In this document: piece after piece, positions 911 through 11,845 of the stretch | How the letters are laid out: every line of letters begins with the position of its first letter | Numbering within the stretch: the stretch's first letter is position 1 | DNA from: Kiritimatiellia bacterium | GTDB lineage: Bacteria > Verrucomicrobiota > Kiritimatiellia > RFP12 > UBA3636 | NCBI GenBank assembly: GCA_017476965.1 | Contig: JAFUXX010000049.1 | Location: 1 to 12,995, forward strand | Length of the DNA: 12,995 bases | Direction: 5' to 3' | The notes under the pieces: model-generated | The model's database searches: none | Told to the model about the DNA's origin: nothing | The model's input: only the letters and a program-made list of their open reading frames with translations | Translations under genes and position numbers: made by a program

Positions 911-1471
911 ATGAAAAGCAAGCCAATCGCAATCGGCGTAATCGTCGCGCTCGCAGTCGCGGGCTGCAACATCTACAACGGTCTCGTGGATTCCTCCGAA
1001 GGCGTGGACGCCGCCTGGAGCGACATCGACGCCATGCTCCAGCGCCGCGCCGACCTCGTGCCGAATCTCGTCTCCACCGTGAAGGGCTACGCGACCCACG
1101 AGGAAAAGGTGTTCTCGGAAGTTTCCGAGGCGCGTTCCCGCCTTTCCGGCGCGCGCACTCCCGCCGAGGCCGCAGAGGCCGACGCCGCGCTCACCGGCGT
1201 TCTCGGCCGCCTTCTAGCGATCGCGGAGGCGTACCCGGAACTCAAGGCGAACGAAAACTTCATGCGCCTGCAGGACGAACTTTCCGGCACCGAGAACCGC
1301 ATCGCCGTCGCGCGCAAGGACTACAACGCCCTCGTGAAGTCGTACAACGCCGCGATCCGCCGCATCCCCGCCTCGCTCCTCGCCGGTCCGCTCGGCTTCG
1401 AAAAGAAGGACTACTTCGAGCCGCCCGCGGGCCACGACGCCGTTCAGGTCGCGCCGGCCGTCGCGTTCTAG
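911..1471 (+). CDS. lemA: LemA family lipoprotein
   Basis: 186 residues. The N-terminus has a Lys start, a hydrophobic stretch (6-18) and a lipobox V-A-G-C with C19 as the probable lipidated residue. The body carries the LemA signature: YNGLV near the start, then D..W.DID..LQRRADLVPNLV..VKGYA.HE..V, a family-typical helical segment. A second conserved block follows (AYPELKANENFMRLQDELSGTENRIAVARKDYN..V..YN). LemA proteins are membrane-anchored helical bundles of poorly defined function. The ATG at 911 is the only start giving the lipoprotein signal, although no Shine-Dalgarno sequence is visible before it. A TPM-domain gene follows 36 nt later; lemA-TPM pairs recur in many bacteria and point to a shared envelope role. 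Nothing odd in length or sequence. Confidence 0.93.
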   Translation: MKSKPIAIGVIVALAVAGCNIYNGLVDSSEGVDAAWSDIDAMLQRRADLVPNLVSTVKGYATHEEKVFSEVSEARSRLSGARTPAEAAEADAALTGVLGRLLAIAEAYPELKANENFMRLQDELSGTENRIAVARKDYNALVKSYNAAIRRIPASLLAGPLGFEKKDYFEPPAGHDAVQVAPAVAF

Positions 1472-1507: not shown

Positions 1508-2344
1508 ATGCCGAAAAAACATCCTGTGCGCCGGGCAATCGGCACCGCTCTCGTCGCGGGCGGCCTCGTGCTGTTCGCGGCGGAGATGGCGCTGTCCTGT
1601 TCCCCCTCGGACCGCGGCAAGGTCCGCGACTTCCGCGCCAGTCACGCCGTGCGCGCGGACGACCGTTCCGCGTACGTCGGCGTCGTGCCCGATCTGCCGG
1701 AGGACTTCGTGCTCGACGCCGCGGGCACCTTTTCGGAAGAAGGCCACGCTGCCGTCGCCGCGGAGCTCGCCGCGCTCGAAACCGCCACGGGCGGCGGCCA
1801 GATGGCGGTCGCCGTATTTTCCACTCTCTCCGGCGCCGATCCGCACGAAGCCGCCCTGCGCATCGCCCGGACGTGGGCGCTCGGGCGCAAGGGAGTGGAC
1901 GACGGCGCGCTGCTTCTCATCGCCGTCGAAGACCGTGAAATCCGTCTCGAAATCGGGCTCGGCTGGGAAGGCGTTATTCCCGACTCCCGCGCCGGCGGCT
2001 TCATCGACAGCGCCATCCTCGAGCTGAAGAACGCCAAGTGGGCCGACGCCGCCGTGGCCATCGCGCGCGATGTCCGCGCCGCGGTGTCCGGCGAAACCCT
2101 CCCCGCGCGCAAGACCCCGGAGGAACCCGCCAAGCCTCCTCTCGGCGTTCTCGGGCTCTTCGCCGCGTTCATCGGACTCATGCTGCGCGACGAGTCCGAA
2201 GGCTCCGGCGGCCGCGCCGTGCGCGGCGGCGGCGGCGGATGCACCGCTGCCGGCAATCCTTCCTTCCGCGGCCCCTCCCCCCGCCCCGTCCACCGCGGCG
2301 GTGGCGGACGTTTCGGCGGCGGCGGCGCGGGCCGCAGGTTCTGA
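1508..2344 (+). CDS. TPM-domain (YgcG-like) membrane protein
   Basis: 278 residues. A basic start (KKHPVRR) and hydrophobic helix 10-31 form a signal anchor or uncleaved signal; the ALSC at 28-31 is a poor lipobox. A TPM domain (about 64-200) shows the usual order: VLDAAGTFSEE, a strand QMAVAVFST, then ARTWALGRKGVDDGALLLIAVEDREIRLEIGLGWEGVIPDS. A second short hydrophobic segment (about 210-226) is followed by a Gly-rich tail ending GGGGRFGGGGAGRRF. Glycine tails after the last helix are typical of this family, though they usually end in aromatic/Ser residues rather than the Arg-rich end seen here. TPM domains have been linked to acid phosphatase activity (thylakoid TLP18.3) and photosystem repair in plants; the bacterial role is unclear. 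Pairing with lemA upstream supports the call. Confidence 0.87.
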   Translation: MPKKHPVRRAIGTALVAGGLVLFAAEMALSCSPSDRGKVRDFRASHAVRADDRSAYVGVVPDLPEDFVLDAAGTFSEEGHAAVAAELAALETATGGGQMAVAVFSTLSGADPHEAALRIARTWALGRKGVDDGALLLIAVEDREIRLEIGLGWEGVIPDSRAGGFIDSAILELKNAKWADAAVAIARDVRAAVSGETLPARKTPEEPAKPPLGVLGLFAAFIGLMLRDESEGSGGRAVRGGGGGCTAAGNPSFRGPSPRPVHRGGGGRFGGGGAGRRF

Positions 2345-2386: not shown

Positions 2387-4711
2387 ATGAAAACTCCCGA
2401 TTGCGGCCGGTTCTCGAAAGACGGCCTCGAATACGTGGTGACGCGGCCCGACACGCCGCGTCCGTTCGACAACATGCTCTGGAACCGCCAGATGCTCGCC
2501 AACGTGCAGCAGACCGGCGCCGGCTACACCGACTACCAGATCGGCTCCTTCGAGATGACGAAACTCTCGCAGGGCATCGGCCGCATCTGCGATTTCGACG
2601 TCTACGGCCGCGACACGTTCCTGAACCGCCTCGTCTACGTCCGCGACAACAAGACCGGGCAATTCTGGAACGTCGGCTGGGAGCCCGTGAAGGCAAAGCC
2701 GACGCGCTTCCGCGCGCGCCACGGCCTCGGCTACACGATCATCGAAAACGAGACGGACGGCGTCGCCGCCTCGTTCCGCGTGTTCGTCCCCGCCGGAGAC
2801 GAGCCCGCCGAGTACTGGACGCTCCGCCTCGCGCCGAAAACCGCCCGCGACCTGACGGTCTTCGTGTACGAGCAGATTTCGTTCAAGTACATGTGGGGCT
2901 TCAACTCCTACGGCGACATGTTCTACCGCAATTCGCGCCTCGACGCGAAGCGCAACATGGCGGTCTTCGCGAAGCACCCGTTCGTCACGCCGCATCCGTG
3001 GCAGACCGGCTTCCTCGCGGCCGACCGCAAGATCGACGGCTTCGACGGCAGCAAGGACTTCTTCGTCGGCACCTACAACCAGCTCAACGAGCCCGAAGCC
3101 GTCGTGAAGGGCCGCTGCACGGGCTCCGTCGGCTCCTCGGACGCCACGATCGCCGCGCTCCAGTTCGACCTCGGCAAGGTGAAGGCGGGTGAGGAGGTCG
3201 CGATCAACCTCGTCCTCGGCGTGAGCGACTCCGAGGCGCACGCCGCCGCGGCGGCGAAGAAATCCCTCGCGAAGGTCGAGGAAAAATTCGCCGCGCTCGT
3301 CGCCGCCAAGAAGGCGCTCGCCGCGCGCAACGCGGCGCACACGCCCGACCCGGTCTTCGACTCCACTTTCAACGCCTGGCACAAGCAGCAGGCGCTCTTC
3401 GGCGCGGAGTGGTGCCGCTGGGGCTGGATGGGCTACCGCGACATCGTGCAGCACGCGATGGGCTGCTCGTCCTTCTACCCGGAGCGCACGCGCGAAATCC
3501 TGCTCCTCGCGCTGCGCCACCAGTATTCCTCCGGCCTCGCGCTGCGCGGCTGGAACCCGATCGACACGAAGGAGTACTCCGACTCCGCGCTCTGGCTCGT
3601 CTTCACGCTCTGCGCGTACCTGCGCGAAACAGGCGAGAAGGCGCTGCTCGACGTGAAGGTCCCGTTCTACGACAAGGGCGGGGCGACGGTGCTCGGCCAC
3701 GTCCGCCGCGCGCTCGACTTCCTCGAATCGAACAAGGGAGCGCACCGCCTGCTGCTGATCAAATTCGGCGACTGGAACGACTCGCTCACCGGCATCGGCA
3801 AGGGAGGCAAAGGCGAAAGCGTCTGGCTCTCGATGGCGTACAGCGCGGCGCTGCAGCAGATGGCGGAACTTTACGACTGGCTCGCCGACGCGGACTCCGC
3901 CGCCGACGCCCGCGCCCGCTCCGCCGCGATCAACAAGGCGCTCAACGAGGAGGCGTGGGACGGCGCGTGGTACGTCCGCGGGTTCGACGACGACGGCAAC
4001 CCGATCGGCTCCTCGAAGAACCGCGAGGGCAAGATCTACCTGAACACGCAGAGCTGGGCGATCATCTGCGGCGCGGCTGCGCCCGGGCGCCGCAGGAAGA
4101 TCCTCGCCTCGATCGACAGGAAGCTCAAGACGCCTCTCGGCTACCAGATGATGGCGCCCGCGTACCGCCACTTCGACCCCGTCATCGGCCGCGTCACGTC
4201 GATGGAGCCCGGCATCTGCGAAAACGGCACGATCTACACGCACTGCAACTCGTGGATGGTCCTCGCGCTGCTCCGCGCCGGACTCACCGAGCGCGCGTGG
4301 TCGCTTTACCGCGACGCCACGCCCGCCTACGGCGACTCGCCGCTCAAGAAGGCCAATCCCCGCTACGTCTACGGCAACTGCTTCTTCGGCCCCGAGCACC
4401 GCAACGCGCCGTACCGCATGGAGTTCAACTGGATCACCGGTTCGATCGCGTGGTTCTTCAACATCGAGAACGACGAACTGCTCGGCATCCGCCGCGACTA
4501 CGCGGGCCTCGCCATCGCGCCGCACCTGCCGAAGGACTGGAAAGGCTTCGAGCAGGTCCGCACGTGGCGCGGCAAGACGTTCCGCGCCGTCGTCAGGGGC
4601 GGCGGCGACAAGGTGAAGCGCGTCAGCGTGGACGGCGTCGCAATGCCCGCGCCCTTCGTCCCGGAGGAAACGCTCCGCGACGGTTCCGAAATTCTCGTCG
4701 AAATGGCCTGA
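2387..4711 (+). CDS. GH94 family glycoside phosphorylase (specificity unknown)
   Basis: 774 residues with no signal peptide, so cytoplasmic. The order is the GH94 one: an N-terminal beta-sandwich domain (about 1-270), a helical linker (about 275-320) and an (alpha/alpha)6 barrel. Key motifs are YRD (350-352), a glycosyl-binding motif; GDWNDS (461-466), holding the conserved general-acid Asp; EPG..ENGTIYTH (E612-N613-G614 plus His) and GPEHRNAP near the phosphate site; then EFNWITGS.AWFF. GH94 enzymes reversibly cleave beta-linked disaccharides or oligosaccharides with phosphate, giving a sugar 1-phosphate and saving ATP. Members act on cellobiose, cellodextrin, chitobiose, laminaribiose, cellobionate and others. 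Length is near that of disaccharide phosphorylases, but the motifs do not let me choose the substrate. No Shine-Dalgarno is visible. It leads a tight cluster with the small membrane protein (7-nt gap) and argC. Confidence 0.9.
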   Translation: MKTPDCGRFSKDGLEYVVTRPDTPRPFDNMLWNRQMLANVQQTGAGYTDYQIGSFEMTKLSQGIGRICDFDVYGRDTFLNRLVYVRDNKTGQFWNVGWEPVKAKPTRFRARHGLGYTIIENETDGVAASFRVFVPAGDEPAEYWTLRLAPKTARDLTVFVYEQISFKYMWGFNSYGDMFYRNSRLDAKRNMAVFAKHPFVTPHPWQTGFLAADRKIDGFDGSKDFFVGTYNQLNEPEAVVKGRCTGSVGSSDATIAALQFDLGKVKAGEEVAINLVLGVSDSEAHAAAAAKKSLAKVEEKFAALVAAKKALAARNAAHTPDPVFDSTFNAWHKQQALFGAEWCRWGWMGYRDIVQHAMGCSSFYPERTREILLLALRHQYSSGLALRGWNPIDTKEYSDSALWLVFTLCAYLRETGEKALLDVKVPFYDKGGATVLGHVRRALDFLESNKGAHRLLLIKFGDWNDSLTGIGKGGKGESVWLSMAYSAALQQMAELYDWLADADSAADARARSAAINKALNEEAWDGAWYVRGFDDDGNPIGSSKNREGKIYLNTQSWAIICGAAAPGRRRKILASIDRKLKTPLGYQMMAPAYRHFDPVIGRVTSMEPGICENGTIYTHCNSWMVLALLRAGLTERAWSLYRDATPAYGDSPLKKANPRYVYGNCFFGPEHRNAPYRMEFNWITGSIAWFFNIENDELLGIRRDYAGLAIAPHLPKDWKGFEQVRTWRGKTFRAVVRGGGDKVKRVSVDGVAMPAPFVPEETLRDGSEILVEMA

Positions 4712-4718
4712 ACCCAAA

Positions 4719-5015
4719 ATGGACTGGTCCGTCTTTTTCGAAAGCGCCATGCTCGTCTGCTTCGCGGCGAGCTGGCCGTTTTCCATCGCGAAAACCCTGC
4801 GCACCAAGGTCGTCGCCGGCAAGAGCCCGCTCTTCATGCTGATCATCGAAGTCGGCTACGTCTCCGGCATTCTCTACAAGCTCGTCGGCAAAACCGACGC
4901 CGTGATCTGGCTCTACGTCCTGAACTTCTGCGTCGTCGGCACCGACCTCTTCCTCTACTGGCGCTACCGCGGCAACGTCCCCGCCGCGGCTGCCGCACCC
5001 GACAAGGCGAAATGA
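4719..5015 (+). CDS. Small three-helix PQ-loop/SemiSWEET-like membrane protein
   Basis: 98 residues with three predicted membrane helices: about 4-24, 37-57 and 62-81, then a polar Ala-rich tail. The first helix ends in WPFS (19-22), followed by a basic loop with K30 and G34-K35-S36. This resembles the PQ-loop pattern (P-x at the helix end, K...G-x-S in the loop) of SemiSWEET sugar transporters, which are single three-helix units that dimerise. The resemblance is by eye and the canonical PQ pair is PF here, so transport activity is an inference. The gene starts 7 nt after the GH94 stop and overlaps argC by ATGA (5012-5015), so it is almost certainly co-transcribed. It may simply be a conserved membrane protein of unknown function. 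Confidence 0.75.
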   Translation: MDWSVFFESAMLVCFAASWPFSIAKTLRTKVVAGKSPLFMLIIEVGYVSGILYKLVGKTDAVIWLYVLNFCVVGTDLFLYWRYRGNVPAAAAAPDKAK

Positions 5016-5959
5016 AAAAAATCTTCATCGACGGCAGCGCCGGCACGACCGGCCTGCGCATACGCGACAGGCTCGCCGGGCGGGCCGACGTCTCGCTCGT
5101 CACCCTTCCCGAAGAGCTGCGCAAGGATCACGCGGCGCGCGCGGAGGCGCTGAACGCCGCGGACGTCGCGTTCCTCTGCCTGCCGGACGCCGCCGCGGTC
5201 GAAGCCGTGGCGCTCCTCGACCCGGCGAACGACCGCACGGTAGTGATCGACACCTCCACCGCGCACCGCACCGCTCCCGGATGGGACTACGGTTTCCCGG
5301 AACTGCCCGGCGCGCGCGAAAAAATCGCCCGCAGCCGCCGCATCGCGAACCCCGGCTGCCACGCGAGCGGGTTCGTCGCGCTCGTCGCGCCGCTCCTGCG
5401 CGCGGGCCTCGTCGCGCCCGGCACTCCCCTCTCCTGCTTTTCGCTCACCGGCTACACCGGCGGCGGCAAGAAGATGATCGCGCAGTACGAAGGCGACGCC
5501 GCCGCGCGCGATCCGCTGCTCGGCGCCCCGCGCCAGTACGGTCTCTCCCAGGCCCACAAGCACCTGCCCGAAATGGTGGCGATGACCGGAATCGGCGCCG
5601 CCCCCGCCTTCTGCCCCGTCGTGGCCGATTTCCCGTGCGGCATGGAGGTGACGGTTCCGCTGTTCGCCCGCGACGTCGGCGGGGCGTCGCCGGAAGCGGT
5701 CGCCGCCGTCTACCGCGCCGCGTACCCGGAGACTTCGCTCGTCCGCTTCCGCGACGCCGCGGACGAATCCGGTTTCCTCTCCGCGTCGGCGTTCGCCGGA
5801 CGCGACGACATGGAGATTTCGCTCCACGGCAACGCGGAGCGCATGGTGGCCGTCGCGCGGTTCGACAACCTCGGCAAGGGCGCTTCCGGCGCGGCGATCC
5901 AGAACATGAACGTCGCCCTCGGGCTCCCCGAAACGACCGGTCTCGAACTCGGCGCCTGA
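5012..5959 (+). CDS. argC: N-acetyl-gamma-glutamyl-phosphate reductase, type 2
   Basis: 315 residues, the length of type 2 ArgC (type 1 is about 340-350). It reduces N-acetyl-glutamyl-5-phosphate to the semialdehyde with NADPH in cytoplasmic arginine synthesis. The start KKIFIDGSAGTTGLRI is the NADP-binding Rossmann turn. ANPGCHASGF carries the catalytic Cys (C116). Other conserved blocks are VIDTSTAHR, WDYGFPEL, LTGYTGGGKKMI, QYGLSQAHKHLPEM and NLGKGASGAAIQNMN. The ATG at 5012 overlaps the upstream stop (ATGA), suggesting translational coupling; AAGG just upstream is a weak ribosome site. No other arg genes lie in the window, so argC is separated from the rest of the pathway and sits behind a sugar phosphorylase and a membrane protein. 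Confidence 0.95.
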   Translation: MKKIFIDGSAGTTGLRIRDRLAGRADVSLVTLPEELRKDHAARAEALNAADVAFLCLPDAAAVEAVALLDPANDRTVVIDTSTAHRTAPGWDYGFPELPGAREKIARSRRIANPGCHASGFVALVAPLLRAGLVAPGTPLSCFSLTGYTGGGKKMIAQYEGDAAARDPLLGAPRQYGLSQAHKHLPEMVAMTGIGAAPAFCPVVADFPCGMEVTVPLFARDVGGASPEAVAAVYRAAYPETSLVRFRDAADESGFLSASAFAGRDDMEISLHGNAERMVAVARFDNLGKGASGAAIQNMNVALGLPETTGLELGA

Positions 5960-5990: not shown

Positions 5991-6032
5991 CGGTTCGCGC
6001 GAAAACTGTTTGAACGGTTTTCGCGCGAACCG
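5991..6032. repeat. 42-bp near-perfect palindrome before the sigma gene
   Basis: The outer 16-bp arms CGGTTCGCGCGAAAAC (5991-6006) and GTTTTCGCGCGAACCG (6017-6032) are exact inverted repeats. Including the centre, 19 of 21 positions are symmetrical. The candidate -35 TTGAAC lies in its middle and the -10 TATAAT starts 2 nt after its right arm. It could be an operator for a dimeric regulator, a bidirectional transcription stop after argC (no T-run follows, which argues against a classic terminator), or a dispersed palindromic repeat. The placement across the promoter makes a regulatory role the preferred inference. Confidence 0.8.
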
Positions 6033-6039
6033 GTATAAT
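6010..6039 (+). promoter_or_regulatory. Sigma70-type promoter of the sigma-factor gene
   Basis: A consensus -10 TATAAT lies at 6034-6039 and a -35 TTGAAC (4/6 to TTGACA) at 6010-6015, with an 18-nt spacer. The start site would fall near 6046, giving a leader of about 14 nt that contains GGAGAG (6046-6051), 8 nt before the ATG at 6060. AT-rich hexamers are rare in this GC-rich window, which raises the weight of the match. The -35 and spacer are inside the palindrome, so binding there would block the polymerase. Confidence 0.7.
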
Positions 6040-6059: not shown

Positions 6060-9000
6060 ATGACCGTCGTCGAAGAACTGAGGCAGAACCGCGAAAGCGG
6101 CGCGAAAAGGCTCGAAGCGGAGTACAAGGCCGGGCTCATGACGCTCGCCCGGCGCTTTTGCACCGACGAGTCGGACGCCGAGGAGCTGGTGAACCGCACG
6201 TTCGCCGCCGTCGTGGAAGGCATAGACGACTACCTGGAGCAGTCCGCGTTTTTCGGCTGGATGTGCCAGATTCTCTCCAACATCCACGCCAAGGACGTGC
6301 GGAAGAAGTCGAGCGGCGTCGTCTCCTACCCCGGCGAGGTGCCGGACGTGGCGGACGAAGCCCCGGCCGTGCCGGACGCCGTGGACGCCATTTTCGTGCG
6401 CGACGCCGTGGAAAGCCTGCCCGACGAAATGCGCGAGCTCGTCGTGTTGCGCTACTTCACCGGGCTTTCGGTACCGCAAATCGCCAAATTCCTCGCGATC
6501 CCCGCCGGCACCGTGAAGAGCCGCCTGCACTACGCCCACAAGGCTCTCGCCGCCAAACTCGGCGCGGCGGCGAAGAAACCCGGCGTGAAGGCGATGCTCG
6601 TGGCGCTCGCGCTCTGCGCGATCACCGCGCTCGGCGCGCTGACCGTCGCCGTCGTGTCCGGCGGCTCCGCGGATTCCGCGGATTCCTCGGTTTCCGGCCT
6701 CGAGGCGGCGTCCGAAGCGTCAGGATTTTCCGGATCCTCCGGATCGGCGGCAAACGAATTTTCAAGAGGAAAACCAACCATGAACACACGCACAATTCTG
6801 GCGCCCGTGGCGGCGCTTTCGTTCGCGGCGATGGGAAGCGGCCCGGCGGGCGCCGCGACTGTCGCCGAGCCGGCGTCTTCGGCGTCGCTCCCGGCGTCCA
6901 TCGAAGCCAAGACCGCGCTGTGGCTCGACGCATCGAAGAACCTCGTCCTCGATTCTTCGGGCAATCTCGTAGCATGGCTCGACGCCCGCGAGACCGCCCC
7001 CGCCGACTATGCCGACTACGAGGCTTCCGCCGCCGCCGCGAGTTTCACACATCCCCGCGCGGTCGTCTGGCAGACCGGCGAAGCGCCTTCCGGCTTCCCG
7101 ACCGTCGTCGGCGACGCTCCGGCGTCCTTCGGCGGCAAGCCGTACGTCGATTTCGGCGAGTACCACGACAACAAGTGGATGCTCTTCGTCGGCCCGGACG
7201 GCGCGCACGCGCCCGTGACGCTCGTCGGCTACGCGGGCGTCCTCGGCTTCGGCGAAACCGCGGGCTTCGTCGTGGGGCACGTGGACGACCCGGATCTCGT
7301 GCCGAAGACCGACGCCGGCAACGGCTCCCAATTCTACCACAAGGGCGCGGCCGGCAGCGGAGAGGACGCGATCTACTCCGGCTCCAACGGCTACGGCCGC
7401 TACGGCGAAACCCGCAAAAACGGCCACGTCGTGAAATCTACGACGAACGACAACGAAAACCGCCACACGCGCAACGGCTGGGAAACGTTCGTCGAGAACG
7501 GCCCGAACGTTTCCGGCATGGTCGTTTCGACGCTCTTCAACAACGGCAACTTCAAGGCTTCCGTGAACGCGGCATACACCGACCGCCAGGGCGGCGGCAG
7601 GATCGCCGAAATCGTGGTCCTTTCCGAGATGCTCACGCAGGAGGAAGTCGCCGATCTCGAAGCGTACTTCCGCGCCAAGTGGCTCGCGGGCGGCGGCGAC
7701 GCCACTGCCACCGTCGCGCTCCCCGCCGGCGACACGCTCGCCGTTCAGGCCGACGGCCAAGTCTTCGTGGGCGACATCGCCGGCGCCGGCGCGATCGAAA
7801 AGACCGGCTCCTCCTCGCTCACCGTCGACCGCAACGGCCGCCTCGCCGCCGGCCCGCTCGCACTCCGCGAGGGCGGCTACGTCTCGTGGGCCAAGCGCGC
7901 CCACCACGCGCCGCTTCTCGCCATCGGCGGCAAGACGGTCACCGCTTCGGCATCGACGCTCTCCGTCCGGACCGCCGGCGACGCCGACACGTTCACCGTG
8001 AACGAAAGCGTCGCCCGCCGCGTGGCCCTCGCCGGGGCCGAATCCGGCGTCGCCAAGATCGCGGCCTCCAAGGCAGCGATCTCCCTCCGTCCGCAGGCCC
8101 TTCCCGCCGCCGACGCCGCGACCGCCGTCGACCCCGATTTCCTCGCCATCGGAAACCTGATCGAGAACGGCAGCTTCGAGAAGGACGCGATCACGGCCTC
8201 TGCGGGCTACCAGCAGAACAAGGTGCCGACCGGCTGGAGCATCTCCGCGAAGAAGAACACGAATGCGAACTCCGTCGGCATCACCACGACGCGCGACACG
8301 ACGGCATGGCTCAACTACGCCTACCAGGGCTTGGTGCCGGACGGCGACCAAGCGCTTCTCATGCAGGTGATGAACTCGACCGATTCGACGAACGGCCTCC
8401 AGCAGACGGTCTCCGTCCCGCAGGCGGGCCTCTACGAGTTCTCGGCGTTCATCCGCTGCCGCAACCGCCCGAACAACACCGACAAGACCGTTTCCTTCCG
8501 CGTCTACGTGGACGGCACGCAAGTCTTGGTGCGGCGTCCGTGGCTCACCGGAGCGTGGGATGCCTCGGCGCGCGCGTTCACGACCACCTCCACCGAATAC
8601 GAATTCAAGCGCGTCGCCACCGATGTCGCGCTCTCCAAGGGCAACCACGTGATCGAAATCGTCGCCACCAACCCGCACACCACCGACAACAAGCAGGACC
8701 GCGCAATCATGGTGGACGACGTCCGCCTCGAACCCGTCGCCCCCGGCGACTTCGTGCTCGTGCCCGACGCAAACTTCAGCTCCTGCGACGTCTGGAGCCA
8801 AACCGAGATCGACTCCTCCTACGGCGGCAACTTTTCCCGCACGGCCGCTCCGTTCTGGACGATTTCCTCCGGCGCGCTTTCGCGCTTCCCGAGCACTTGG
8901 TTCTGCAACCCGATCTACAACGACTCCGGCGAAGACCAGCAGGCCGCGCTCCAGAACAACGCCACCGCCACGCAGACCGTCACGCTCCCGCGCGCCGGCC

Positions 9001-9917
9001 GCGTGCGGGTTTCGGTCCGCTACGCGAACCGCTCCTCGAACCTCTACACCGGCGCCGTGCGCGCTTCGGGCCAGACCTTCTCGGTCTCCCTCGGCGACTC
9101 CACGGTTTTCTCCACCACGGTGACCTCGCCCGACATGGCCACGGCCGTCGCGGAAATCGACGCCGCCGCGGGCGCCCAGCAGCTCGTGCTGCGCAGCTAC
9201 CGCGACGGCAGCGCCGACCTCACGACGATCGTGGACGACGTCCGCATCGAATACGTCGGCTCTTCCGACCGCGCGCTCGACGACGCGGCCTTCGCCGCCA
9301 ACTCCTCGACCTGGTCGCTGGACGGCGCGTCTGCCGAGTCCGATCCCTACGGTCTGCGCGAGCTCGTCTTCTCCGGTACCGCCAAGGCGACCGCGACCTT
9401 CTCGGTCCCGTCCGACGGCTACTACCTGCTCACCTTCCAGTCGCGCGGGCGTCCTCTCTCCGAAAGCGGCCAAACCGGAATCTACCACAGCTTCAACTAC
9501 TACTCGCACAACCTCGACGTGCGTCTCGACGGCGGTTTCGTCGCCAACGTCTACAACGCCCACGTCGACCGCTTCCCGGTCGAGTTGCGCCTGCCATACC
9601 TCACCGCAGGCGAGCATGCCCTGCTCTTCTCCGGCTCCAGCGACGGCACCAGCGCCGCCACTGCGCAGTCGCGCATCTCCGACGTGACGGTGACGCCCCT
9701 CGCCACAGGTGCGATCGCCGATTGGAGCAAGATCGAATTCGATCTGGCCGGCGACGCGACGATCGACGCCGATTTCCCGGGCACCGTCCGCGTCGGCCGC
9801 ATCCGCGTGGACGGCAAGGCGTACTTCGGCTCCTTCACGGCGGACGACTCTTCCTTCGTCACCGGCCCCGGCACCGTCGAAGCCGTGCCCGAAGCCTTCG
9901 TCCTGGTCGTGCGCTAA
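6060..9917 (+). CDS. ECF-type sigma factor fused through one membrane helix to a LamG/CBM-like surface protein
   Basis: One uninterrupted frame of 1,285 codons. Residues 1-80 match sigma region 2 (DESDAEELVNRTFAAVVEGIDDY...FFGWMCQI..NI). Residues about 115-170 match region 4, with helix-turn-helix SVPQIAKFLAIPAGTVKSRLH. KKPGVK precedes one hydrophobic helix (178-199), then a Ser/Ala/Asp-rich tail. At 241 begins a signal-peptide-like segment (MNTRTILAPVAALSFAAM, cleavage near GPAGA), then a LamG/concanavalin-like region (280-543; ALWLDAS...GGRIAEIVVL) and a short GAGAIEKTGSSSLTV motif (about 569-595) like autotransporter-associated repeats. Three beta-sandwich domains resembling carbohydrate-binding modules follow (699-893 with NLIENGSFE..PTGW and VDDVRLEP; 898-1067 with VDDVRIEY; 1070-1215), then a 70-residue end. 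No barrel or PEP-CTERM anchor is seen. If translated as one protein, the sigma domains are cytoplasmic and the rest periplasmic. Otherwise residues 241-1285 are a separate secreted protein starting at 6780. Confidence 0.8.
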   Translation: MTVVEELRQNRESGAKRLEAEYKAGLMTLARRFCTDESDAEELVNRTFAAVVEGIDDYLEQSAFFGWMCQILSNIHAKDVRKKSSGVVSYPGEVPDVADEAPAVPDAVDAIFVRDAVESLPDEMRELVVLRYFTGLSVPQIAKFLAIPAGTVKSRLHYAHKALAAKLGAAAKKPGVKAMLVALALCAITALGALTVAVVSGGSADSADSSVSGLEAASEASGFSGSSGSAANEFSRGKPTMNTRTILAPVAALSFAAMGSGPAGAATVAEPASSASLPASIEAKTALWLDASKNLVLDSSGNLVAWLDARETAPADYADYEASAAAASFTHPRAVVWQTGEAPSGFPTVVGDAPASFGGKPYVDFGEYHDNKWMLFVGPDGAHAPVTLVGYAGVLGFGETAGFVVGHVDDPDLVPKTDAGNGSQFYHKGAAGSGEDAIYSGSNGYGRYGETRKNGHVVKSTTNDNENRHTRNGWETFVENGPNVSGMVVSTLFNNGNFKASVNAAYTDRQGGGRIAEIVVLSEMLTQEEVADLEAYFRAKWLAGGGDATATVALPAGDTLAVQADGQVFVGDIAGAGAIEKTGSSSLTVDRNGRLAAGPLALREGGYVSWAKRAHHAPLLAIGGKTVTASASTLSVRTAGDADTFTVNESVARRVALAGAESGVAKIAASKAAISLRPQALPAADAATAVDPDFLAIGNLIENGSFEKDAITASAGYQQNKVPTGWSISAKKNTNANSVGITTTRDTTAWLNYAYQGLVPDGDQALLMQVMNSTDSTNGLQQTVSVPQAGLYEFSAFIRCRNRPNNTDKTVSFRVYVDGTQVLVRRPWLTGAWDASARAFTTTSTEYEFKRVATDVALSKGNHVIEIVATNPHTTDNKQDRAIMVDDVRLEPVAPGDFVLVPDANFSSCDVWSQTEIDSSYGGNFSRTAAPFWTISSGALSRFPSTWFCNPIYNDSGEDQQAALQNNATATQTVTLPRAGRVRVSVRYANRSSNLYTGAVRASGQTFSVSLGDSTVFSTTVTSPDMATAVAEIDAAAGAQQLVLRSYRDGSADLTTIVDDVRIEYVGSSDRALDDAAFAANSSTWSLDGASAESDPYGLRELVFSGTAKATATFSVPSDGYYLLTFQSRGRPLSESGQTGIYHSFNYYSHNLDVRLDGGFVANVYNAHVDRFPVELRLPYLTAGEHALLFSGSSDGTSAATAQSRISDVTVTPLATGAIADWSKIEFDLAGDATIDADFPGTVRVGRIRVDGKAYFGSFTADDSSFVTGPGTVEAVPEAFVLVVR
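6764..6782 (+). promoter_or_regulatory. Internal ribosome site and ATG for the surface-protein part
   Basis: AAGAGGA (6764-6770) lies 9 nt before an in-frame ATG (6780-6782), one of the clearest Shine-Dalgarno/ATG pairs in a window where most genes have none. The product begins with a plausible secretion signal. This suggests that the 1,045-residue surface protein can be made on its own even though the sigma frame runs straight through. The ATG also overlaps a TGA in the +1 frame (ATGA), the usual form of coupled genes here. Confidence 0.65.
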
Positions 9918-10006: not shown

Positions 10007-11845
10007 ATGAAATTTCCCGTTGTCCCGGTCGTTGCCACCCTTGCCGCCGTCTTGCCGGTCCATGCCGCGACGCTGCTCTTCCATGCGCCGCTCGACGGCT
10101 CGCCCGTCGCCGCGGTCGCGGCCGGGCGCGCGGAGCTCCCCTGCTCCACCGATCTCGTGAAAGTGCGCGGCGGCGAATGGGGCGGCACCAACTACCTCTA
10201 CGCAGTGAACACGGGCGACGCTCCGGCGGAAGTGGTGCTGCCGGAACCGTACGGCAAAGTGACGCTTGCGCCGAACGGGCTCGTCGTCAAAACGCAACCG
10301 GCCGATGCTCCGCGGCGGCTTGTCGTCGAAATTTTGCCCGGCGCCACGAACCGCGTCGAGCACCATGCAATCCCGCTCGACGTCGGGGAAATTTTCGCCT
10401 CCGGGAAGGGCGTACGCGCGTCGGTGCGCGTGTCGGGCGAAAACGTTTCGGAGCCGGACCATCCGTGGAACGGCGTGAAATTCATGTTCCATTACCGCGA
10501 TGCTTCATCCGGAAACGACCGCTGGCCCGGCGCCGCGCTGCCGACAGGCACGTTCACGAACCAGCTCGCGGAATTGAGCCTCAGCCCGTACGGCCTCGAC
10601 AGCAATCCCGCCGACGGCCGCGTGGAGCTGATACTCGGGCTCGAAGGCTGCACCGGCCGCGCCGTTTTCGATCTCTCCACCCTCCGCATCGAGCCCGAAG
10701 ACTGGGGCTTCGCCCCCACCAACCAAAACTGGATCGTCCACTACCCGGAAGCAGGGGGAGCAGGCGCCACCCCGGCCGGTATGGAAGCAGGCGCCACCCC
10801 ACCCGCCCAGGAAGCAGGGGGTTCGGGGGGCTGCAAGCCCCCAGTCGTGGGGGGCGCGGGGGGCGCAGCCCCCCGTCCCTTGCGCGGCACCATGCTCCCC
10901 GGCCGCGCCACGCGCGAGGAGGATATCGAGACCCTGCACCGCTGGGGCGCCACGCTCGTGCGCTTCCAGATCACGCGCAACTGGTGGAAAGTCGACGACA
11001 ACCAGGACCTTGCCGAATACGCCCGCTGGGTCGATTCGCGCCTCGACAACCTCGAGCAGGTGTTGGGCTGGTGCGCCGCGCGGGGCATGAAGGTCTGCAT
11101 CGACCTTCACGCTCTCCCCGGCGGCAAGAGCGGCTTCCGCGAGCGCCCCTACGAGATGCACATGTTCCGCGACGAGCGCTACCTCGCCGCGTTCGTCGAC
11201 ACCTGGCGGCGCATCGCGACGCGCTTCCGCGGCCATCCCGCGATCTACGGCTACGACCTCGTCAACGAGCCGAACCAGCGCTCCCCCGCGCCGTTCAGCT
11301 ACTGGGAAGTGCAGCGCCTCGCGGCCGAGGCCGTGCGCGAAATCGACCCGGACACGCCGATCATCGTCGAAAGCAACCTCGCCGACCGTGCCTGCGCCTT
11401 CCGCTACCTTTCGCCGCTCGCGATGGACAACGTGATCTACCAGTGCCACATGTACCAGCCCACCGAGTACACGCACCAAGGCGTGAACGGCAGCCCGGTG
11501 CAGGACGCCGGCAATCCGCTCTCGTGGCCCGGCACGTACCGCGGGCAGGTCTGGGACAAGGAGTTCATCCGGCGCGAGCTCGCGCCGGTCCTCGAATTCC
11601 AGCGCCGCCACAGGTGCAAGATCTACGTCGGCGAATTCAGCGCCGCCGCGTGGGCGCCCGGCGCGGAAAACTACCTGCGCGACTGCATCGAGCTCTTCGA
11701 GGAGTACGGCTGGGACTGGACCTACCACGCCTTCCGCGAAGCGCCGGTCTGGGACGTCGAAAGGGAGACGTCCGCTGACGGCGCCTCCGCGCCCTCCGCG
11801 GACAACCCGCGCAAGCGCGTCCTGCTCGACGCCCTCGCGAAGTGA
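10007..11845 (+). CDS. Exported GH5 family glycoside hydrolase with N-terminal beta-sandwich region
   Basis: 612 residues. A signal peptide (1 to about 21, ending LPVHA-A) sends it out of the cytoplasm. Residues about 22-245 are beta-rich and resemble a carbohydrate-binding module by composition, but I do not recognise the family. Residues about 248-294 are a Gly/Ala/Pro insert of odd codon use, described separately. The GH5 (beta/alpha)8 domain follows: RGTMLPG start, an Arg-bearing strand LVRFQITRNWW, CIDLHALPGG, YDLVNEPNQ with acid/base E421, the His/Tyr strand YQCHMYQP, and YVGEFSAAAW with nucleophile E543. All key GH5 residues are present, so it should be an active retaining enzyme. The substrate (a beta-glucan or beta-mannan is typical of the family) cannot be told from the sequence. 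ATG 10007 is chosen for its signal peptide; the frame stays open upstream only as a shadow. Confidence 0.9.
   Translation: MKFPVVPVVATLAAVLPVHAATLLFHAPLDGSPVAAVAAGRAELPCSTDLVKVRGGEWGGTNYLYAVNTGDAPAEVVLPEPYGKVTLAPNGLVVKTQPADAPRRLVVEILPGATNRVEHHAIPLDVGEIFASGKGVRASVRVSGENVSEPDHPWNGVKFMFHYRDASSGNDRWPGAALPTGTFTNQLAELSLSPYGLDSNPADGRVELILGLEGCTGRAVFDLSTLRIEPEDWGFAPTNQNWIVHYPEAGGAGATPAGMEAGATPPAQEAGGSGGCKPPVVGGAGGAAPRPLRGTMLPGRATREEDIETLHRWGATLVRFQITRNWWKVDDNQDLAEYARWVDSRLDNLEQVLGWCAARGMKVCIDLHALPGGKSGFRERPYEMHMFRDERYLAAFVDTWRRIATRFRGHPAIYGYDLVNEPNQRSPAPFSYWEVQRLAAEAVREIDPDTPIIVESNLADRACAFRYLSPLAMDNVIYQCHMYQPTEYTHQGVNGSPVQDAGNPLSWPGTYRGQVWDKEFIRRELAPVLEFQRRHRCKIYVGEFSAAAWAPGAENYLRDCIELFEEYGWDWTYHAFREAPVWDVERETSADGASAPSADNPRKRVLLDALAK
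10747..10890 (+). repeat. GC-rich hairpin-forming insert inside the GH5 gene
   Basis: In-frame block of about 46 codons between the N-terminal domain and the catalytic barrel. It contains GGAAGCAGGGGG twice (10747-10758, 10810-10821) and GCAGGCGCCACCCC twice (10760-10773, 10787-10800). Two 7-bp-stem hairpins have identical GCA loops (10826-10842 and 10858-10874). Glycine codons switch from the usual GGC to many GGG, and a TTG leucine appears. This looks like a repeat element tolerated as an interdomain linker rather than native coding sequence. Confidence 0.7.

Follow-up and report, generated by a model that had tools for sequence, protein, structure and literature searches.

SigI/RsgI systems have C-terminal outer carbohydrate-binding domains. 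In Clostridium thermocellum, several such paralogous systems sense different substrates, with cleavage by RseP (PMC12203970). In ECF52, represented by SCO4117 of Streptomyces coelicolor, an extracytoplasmic function (ECF) sigma factor is followed by a zinc finger, a membrane helix, a Pro-rich linker and a carbohydrate-binding module (CBM) (PMC5826349). Positive autoregulation was suggested and proteolytic release was proposed for ECF52, which was described as exclusive to Actinobacteria (PMC5826349; PMC8999054). IutY of Pseudomonas putida (ECF243) is a sigma factor fused to a membrane-bound regulatory part and is activated by regulated proteolysis (PMC8999054). Here we describe a gene in a window of 12,995 nucleotides (contig JAFUXX010000049.1, assembly GCA_017476965.1) from a Kiritimatiellia bacterium of the lineage Verrucomicrobiota; Kiritimatiellia; RFP12; UBA3636. 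It encodes an ECF sigma factor, a membrane helix, a linker and a surface protein in one continuous frame. From the comparative sequence evidence, this is quite likely a self-transcribing transmembrane ECF sigma factor, whose single mRNA would give both a tethered full-length chain and a secreted surface protein.

ECF52 is the closest known kind found. ECF52/ECF53 and the protein of the window are alike in having an ECF sigma factor, a membrane helix and a low-complexity outer linker on one chain, which in ECF52/ECF53 also bears a carbohydrate-binding module. The fusion family departs from ECF52 in the missing zinc finger, paralogue number, internal start and phylum. In ECF52 a zinc finger lies between sigma and helix, whereas here there are about 14 residues and no zf-HC2 match. 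Helix and linker are present here too, and the CBM60 match is below the cut-off in the window protein and above it in a relative, L255. Many paralogues per genome with varied outer domains, and an internal start with a signal peptide, are found here in another phylum. IutY differs in carrying a fused anti-sigma factor and in serving iron-starvation cell-surface signalling; no anti-sigma domain was found here. In SigI/RsgI the sigma and anti-sigma factors are two proteins, whereas here the sigma factor itself is the membrane protein. The initial annotation had drawn a comparison with extended ECF factors of Planctomycetes; the nearest published architecture found was ECF52 of Actinobacteria. 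No sigma–surface fusion from Kiritimatiellae was found in the literature search, in which papers on sigma factors in Kiritimatiellae proved to be planctomycete strain descriptions, as judged from the opening lines of the abstracts. What appears to be new here is the comparative evidence of own-promoter recognition and the existence of relatives with an anti-sigma-like protein on a similar outer chassis.

The fused frame and its recurrence

As shown in Table 1, the frame extends from the ATG at 6060 to the stop codon at 9915-9917 and comprises 1,285 codons, stop-free throughout. Sigma70_r2 (residues 22-83) and Sigma70_r4_2 (residues 114-162) exceeded their Pfam cut-offs and region 3 was without a match, giving an ECF-type layout. 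A PDB sequence search with the sigma part returned ECF sigma factors (best E 9e-13). Residues G150, K153 and S154 are positions within the putative -35 recognition helix of region 4. One strong hydrophobic segment at about residues 178-199 (mean hydropathy 2.53 over 19 residues) is directly preceded by KKPGVK and followed by the linker. Pfam, zf-HC2 included, found no anti-sigma domain in the short interval between sigma and helix. The unbroken frame, the sigma regions 2 and 4, the single helix and the Ser-rich stretch of the initial annotation were all borne out. An Rfam search of the window found no family.

Surveys of the family, the order and named genome records gave 130 hits, which were reduced to 91 distinct loci by identical DNA. 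The closed set consisted of 68 of these 91 loci (closed, 5' side uncut, at least 130 bits), with 15 loci open at a contig end left out. A sigma frame of at least 300 amino acids, open past the helix into the outer part, was present at 66 of the 68 closed loci, one of the 66 (L086) being decayed. The initial annotation had named stop codons found consistently between the sigma and surface parts of close relatives as evidence that would refute its reading; this was rejected, since only two of the 68 loci were unfused, namely L095, where the surface protein starts in another frame with the sigma TGA over the ATG, and L070, which is disrupted. The arrangement recurs at dozens of loci with varied outer domains, as the annotation had proposed to check. 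A protein search in which 7,999 candidates were scored gave 265 matches to the sigma part (E ≤ 1e-3) with a fused length of about 700-2,250 amino acids, of which 120 were listed and inspected. A fused protein 97-98% identical to that of the window came from another source (P0002), and a chance open frame or a misassembly was ruled out by the other assemblies and the recurrence in the family.

None of the 60 distinct linkers contained an in-frame stop codon; read in the two alternative frames, they gave 39 and 71. Linkers were 13-88 amino acids long (median 68.5), and all in-frame rows together comprised 4,042 linker codons. DNA of simple sequence, for example TTCAACCTTTCAAC, also recurs between genes, in upstream regions of the sampled relative G009 and of L257, and linker peptides like FNLSTFQPFNLST suggest that the same simple-sequence DNA is present inside linkers.

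When 387 genomes were sampled evenly across the phylum, strong sigma matches (E ≤ 1e-50) were confined to the order of the window and occurred in 7 genomes. G009 has 14 strong sigma matches and G043 at least 19. The source organisms, where named, were Kiritimatiellae, Verrucomicrobia or uncultured-bacterium metagenome-assembled genomes, many from ruminant guts.

Promoter and sigma–promoter covariation

A bipartite motif with an AAC core, a CGGTAT-like -10 element and near-fixed spacing was found upstream of the fusion genes. The expectation-maximisation (EM) motif had a log-likelihood of 406 over 65 upstream regions, compared with 44-62 for three shuffles. The upstream regions had been reduced from 78 to 65 by similarity, and were further reduced to 63 by score or length and to 62 by removal of the disrupted L070. 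On both strands of 1.6 Mb of loci, 53 of the 54 sites scoring at least 10 were located just before a sigma start, an in-sample count.

The AAC-containing -35 element of ECF sigma factors is thus present upstream, and it co-varies with residues 150, 153 and 154, by which it is predicted to be recognised. Ser at residue 154 occurred with T in 26 of 27 cases and Trp with C in 31 of 33, Lys at residue 153 occurred with C in 37 of 37, and a residue other than Gly at 150 occurred with T in place of A in 8 of 10. Among 2,772 residue–base pairs, 43% link sigma region 4 to the -35 element or sigma region 2 to the -10 element. The top 50 pairs included 50, 49 and 47 such domain-matched pairs with 62 sequences, 56 sequences (at most 85% identical) and 44 sequences (at most 75% identical), respectively, and 87 of the top 100 pairs were domain-matched with all 62. 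With the recognition helix left out of the tree, 10 of 13, 5 of 7 and 2 of 3 base changes fell on the same branch as the residue change, against 1.5, 0.5 and 0.07 expected, respectively. Plain sigma factors outside the fused group (type I loci) were compared with this code; both of those with Ser/Thr at residue 150 (n = 2, unused in deriving the rule) had CTATCC, and six with GTVKSRL had GAACC.

In the genome of the window, the only promoter match at up to 2 mismatches was the window's own site, so that no wider regulon was found there at this threshold. Across 161 genomes of the order, 7 of 8 and 4 of 4 sites of two promoter classes preceded genes of this sigma family (two of these genes are cut by contig ends and one is decayed), with 2 and 1 control hits, respectively. 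Thirteen G009 promoters were compared with 1.22 Mb, or 27%, of its 4.5 Mb genome, and no second site was found within 3 mismatches of 20, a strict test in which the permuted control gave 0.4 sites in all; the rest of G009 was searched by two patterns only. These comparisons suggest that each such sigma factor mainly turns on its own gene, and the sigma factor of the window most likely transcribes its own operon, here including a GH5 gene.

Internal start, origin of the fused group and alternative explanations

Nine bases separate the internal AGGA from the ATG at 6780, and a signal-peptide start and Ala-X-Ala site were recognised there by eye and hydropathy. When the internal ATG was chosen by its signal peptide, with the Shine-Dalgarno sequence ignored in the choice, 49 of 63 loci had a Shine-Dalgarno sequence; the remaining in-frame ATGs had one in 69 of 901 cases and the starts of the sigma part in 11 of 83. 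The internal start is thus conserved in most members of the family. The surface protein therefore mostly has its own strong start and the sigma factor mostly a weak one. An automatic finder that also scored the Shine-Dalgarno sequence placed 61 of 66 internal starts in frame. By eye, the other five were L095 (truly out of frame), L127 and L141 (mis-called), L133 (no signal peptide) and L135 (next gene picked); four more loci were without a candidate (L145 and L120, together with L126 and L105, which are cut by contig ends), and L070 was without a helix. Among the listed fused relatives from the protein search, 119 of 120 had the helix and 118 of 120 an internal Met with a hydrophobic stretch. 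The internal signal peptides are less hydrophobic than the helix (mean 1.31 vs 2.29). As the surface part comes with a ribosome site, an ATG and a signal peptide of its own, two products are likely, and one gene can likely yield both the tethered sigma–surface fusion and the secreted surface protein. The one-protein transmembrane switch of the initial annotation was right about the fused chain; it was incomplete in overlooking the second start at 6780, and the promoter at 6010-6039 had also escaped notice.

A midpoint-rooted tree built from 105 sigma domains placed 76 of the 80 fused rows on one side of a single branch with support of 97/92. The fused rows outside this group were L071, whose long branch is uncertainly placed, together with L154, L155 and L273. 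The latter three apparently represent a separate fusion of sigma and helix, with a weak match to squalene cyclases (toroid); many relatives have similar open frames, about 590-613 amino acids in length, and L273 has a 4-nt overlap with a gene for what we take to be a MoxR-type ATPase. The five most basal of the 76 fused rows were L149, L145, L278, L132 and L120. L149, L145, L278 (by eye on L238) and L120 have no internal signal peptide, and neither do L133, which is nested in the group, and P0205. The fused chain is therefore the only visible route outwards in these six. Because four of the five basal relatives are without the internal start and 60 linkers are stop-free, the fusion itself looks to be under selection.

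Type I loci, which come from the same bacterial order, were examined in 24 cases. In 21 of the 24, the sigma gene was followed by an open reading frame (ORF) whose first 200 residues include a membrane segment; a 4-nt overlap was seen in 11 of 24. Nine anti-sigma-like membrane proteins were tested, one of which (L255) was taken from outside the 24-locus set; zf-HC2 matched in 6 of 9 (E ≤ 0.05) and exceeded the Pfam cut-off in 2 of 9. By eye, 6 of 9 had a helix, a linker, a Shine-Dalgarno–ATG–signal peptide unit and a surface domain in frame. The C-termini of type I membrane proteins were often hydrophobic and ended in Arg or Lys. Type I and fused loci are thus alike in helix, linker, surface part, similar C-terminus and often an internal start with signal peptide, and the promoter-like sites of type I mostly obey the same code; they differ in that type I sigma and membrane protein are separate. 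The same layout in these outgroup proteins indicates a shared helix–linker–surface chassis. Judged by layout, the sigma factor in the fused group is in the place of the anti-sigma part elsewhere. In type I the next gene is anti-sigma-like, whereas in the window it encodes GH5, which also sets the locus apart from a classical ECF system.

In the mechanism that we propose, the full-length chain would place sigma in the cytoplasm, cross the inner membrane once by its helix and display the large carbohydrate-binding-like surface protein outside, and translation from the internal start would give only the secreted surface protein. Small amounts of full-length chain would keep sigma at the inner membrane. 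The outer part would sense a polysaccharide or its own export, and sensing would lead to an intramembrane cleavage that frees sigma, with ECF52 and IutY as models. Freed sigma would amplify its own operon (surface protein and downstream gene, here GH5) in a positive loop, and the activated operon would yield mostly secreted surface protein and downstream enzyme. M50 (site-2 protease) genes were found in each of the 3 genomes searched, but matches to this family occurred in all 14 control genomes as well. A bolder version, which we offer tentatively and place somewhat short of an even chance, is a one-gene sensing loop. Here a private in-frame sigma would read essentially only its own promoter, the full-length chain with its poor ribosome site would be a scarce, membrane-tethered sentinel of the far more abundant secreted form from the strong internal start, and in some genomes more than a dozen parallel loops would be kept apart by diverged promoter codes.

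Several observations weigh against the proposed mechanism. No anti-sigma domain is left that would keep sigma off. The topology of the long form is awkward, as it would put the internal signal peptide outside the membrane. Among 22 homologues of the window's surface protein, 20 have no sigma domain. The basal L132 has a GTG with a Shine-Dalgarno sequence at the place of the internal start. The linker bears little resemblance to ordinary coding DNA: its GC content is level across the codon positions and its codon usage differs from that of both flanks, which marks it as a fast-changing low-complexity stretch. In one locus (L095/L056) the surface start is out of frame with sigma and an ATGA overlap is present, and P0169 and P0170 look similar; the fusion can therefore be lost, and these members suggest that the internal start can stand alone. 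The promoter motif was trained on the same upstream regions. A held-out matrix, whose training set still contained some orthologues of the test genes, was run over 1.22 Mb of G009; it picked up 8 of the 14 sigma starts there, and 22 of its 29 sites scoring at least 10 were away from sigma starts and formed no recognisable set. The type I sites are the best matches to the type II matrix, mostly with low scores, and the KWRL-type L074 had none.

In one alternative the fusion is real and its outer part is just an anchor or a reporter of its own export, with no glycan sensed and sigma acting as a dedicated amplifier of the surface-protein operon. The loss of the anti-sigma domain, the few outer residues of some short members (see below) and the occurrence of the C-terminal motif in sigma-less secreted proteins all favour such an anchor, which we nevertheless regard as rather unlikely given the LamG, LRR and CBM-like matches among outer parts and the several carbohydrate enzymes encoded downstream. 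It is improbable that there are two proteins in practice, with the surface protein made from the internal start only, an unimportant read-through by-product and an in-frame junction that is a relic. The strong internal Shine-Dalgarno sequence and signal peptide, the own signal peptide of sigma-less homologues, the out-of-frame L056/L095 and the flat GC profile would fit this explanation, but it does not sit well with the absence of in-frame stops from linkers that have 39 and 71 when read out of frame, with the six relatives without an internal signal peptide, or with the 6 of 9 anti-sigma-like relatives that also read in frame through such a start into the surface part.

Control of the fused sigma by a separate anti-sigma factor in trans seems quite improbable. 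Anti-sigma-like proteins are indeed encoded next door in relatives outside the fused group, but 0 of 20 next genes of fused loci matched an anti-sigma family, a count that covers next genes and not whole genomes. Least credible is a housekeeping sigma factor that reads the promoter while the fused sigma part is a relic. The promoter of the window, TTGAAC-18-TATAAT, resembles a sigma-70 promoter, yet many members are without TTG or TATAAT, the residue–base covariation is split by domain and promoter matches are rare elsewhere.

Outer domains, neighbouring genes and significance

Table 1. Features of the window and the basis of their assignment
Feature	Position	Strand	Basis
Continuous fusion frame, 1,285 aa: ECF sigma, membrane helix, linker, surface protein	6060..9917	+	ORF, Pfam, recurrence
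Predicted ECF-type promoter TTGAACGGTT-10-CCGGTATAAT; -35 block 6010-6019, -10 block 6030-6039	6010..6039	+	EM motif, covariation
Sigma region 2, residues 22-83	6123..6308	+	Pfam PF04542, 25.1 bits vs cut-off 24
Sigma region 4, residues 114-163	6399..6548	+	Pfam PF08281 and PF04545
Single membrane helix, residues 178-199	6591..6656	+	Hydropathy
Ser/Ala-rich linker, 41 aa	6657..6779	+	Sequence and linker set
Internal Shine-Dalgarno AGGA 6767-6770 and in-frame ATG 6780-6782	6767..6782	+	Sequence, family statistics
Putative signal peptide of sigma-free product, MNTRTILAPVAALSFAAMGSGPAGA, then A	6780..6854	+	By eye
Surface protein, ends FVLVVR; weak CBM60-like match, residues 809-893	6855..9914	+	Pfam, homologue searches
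GH5-family glycoside hydrolase, signal-peptide-like start; 89 nt downstream	10007..11845	+	ORF, Pfam
LemA	917-1471		Window gene
TPM-domain protein	1508-2344		Window gene
GH94 phosphorylase	2387-4711		Window gene
Semialdehyde-dehydrogenase-type enzyme	5012-5959		Window gene

The surface part of the window protein has about 1,020 residues. The LamG-like and three CBM-like domains of the initial annotation were not found by Pfam, which gave only the CBM60 match at 20.5 bits, below the cut-off of 28.2; in L255, a 50% identical relative of the surface protein, CBM60 reached 29.7 bits. A PDB sequence search with the surface part gave no meaningful match. The outer domains of fused relatives differ widely, with LamG, LRR and CBM-like matches in Pfam. 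P0013 and P0058 have a type I phosphodiesterase domain (PF01663) in their outer part; the sigma chain can thus bear an enzyme. A short form of about 325-375 amino acids was seen in L106, L125, L131, L135, L122, L132, L084 and many of P0122-P0241, and short-form members have only about 60-85 residues beyond the signal peptide.

The window's surface protein comes together with sigma in the window itself and in P0002 and P0243. A search of whole genomes of the order for this protein gave 8 matches; the 2 that lay in frames of sigma-containing length were both fusions. Sigma-less homologues begin with their own signal-peptide-like stretch at the position of the internal start; one of them, P0256, has a 60-residue cytoplasmic segment and a helix in front, with a separate sigma upstream.

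A C-terminal motif, a hydrophobic stretch followed by Arg or Lys (9897-9914 in the window), ends the protein at 54 of 67 fusion loci and in 95 of 120 fused proteins listed. The motif was rejected as fusion-specific, as it also ends 11 of 38 sigma-less signal-peptide ORFs in the G009 sample, one of which (L191) starts near a contig end and is possibly a cut fusion. Possibly it is a sorting signal that has yet to be described, though the literature was not searched for such a motif.

By a simple ORF rule, 55 of 60 fused loci have a same-strand ORF starting within 400 nt. Twenty of these 55 downstream genes were tested, and none matched an anti-sigma family. Five encoded GH5, including that of the window, so the GH5 enzyme next door in the initial annotation was upheld, and several others were carbohydrate-active. 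There was one each of GH13, GH28 with GDSL, GDSL, SASA esterase and GH109, as well as two LamG proteins, two formylglycine-generating enzymes, one beta-helix protein and five without a family. A formylglycine-generating enzyme was found in both downstream genes tested of short-form members (L084 and L131). The GH5 gene is possibly on the same transcript as the fusion gene, and the downstream genes fit polysaccharide use without being proof of sensing. The window gene at 5012-5959 is presumably ArgC-like.

The fused chain may be a self-contained surface sensor. If this is true, an ECF sigma factor can do without an anti-sigma domain and itself become the membrane sensor, and surface proteins can each bear a private transcription factor. 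The residue-to-base code, drawn from 62 natural sigma/promoter pairs, lends itself to direct testing and might be a source of new orthogonal pairs. The mechanism also proposes how the little-studied gut Kiritimatiellae may regulate their polysaccharide-degrading operons.

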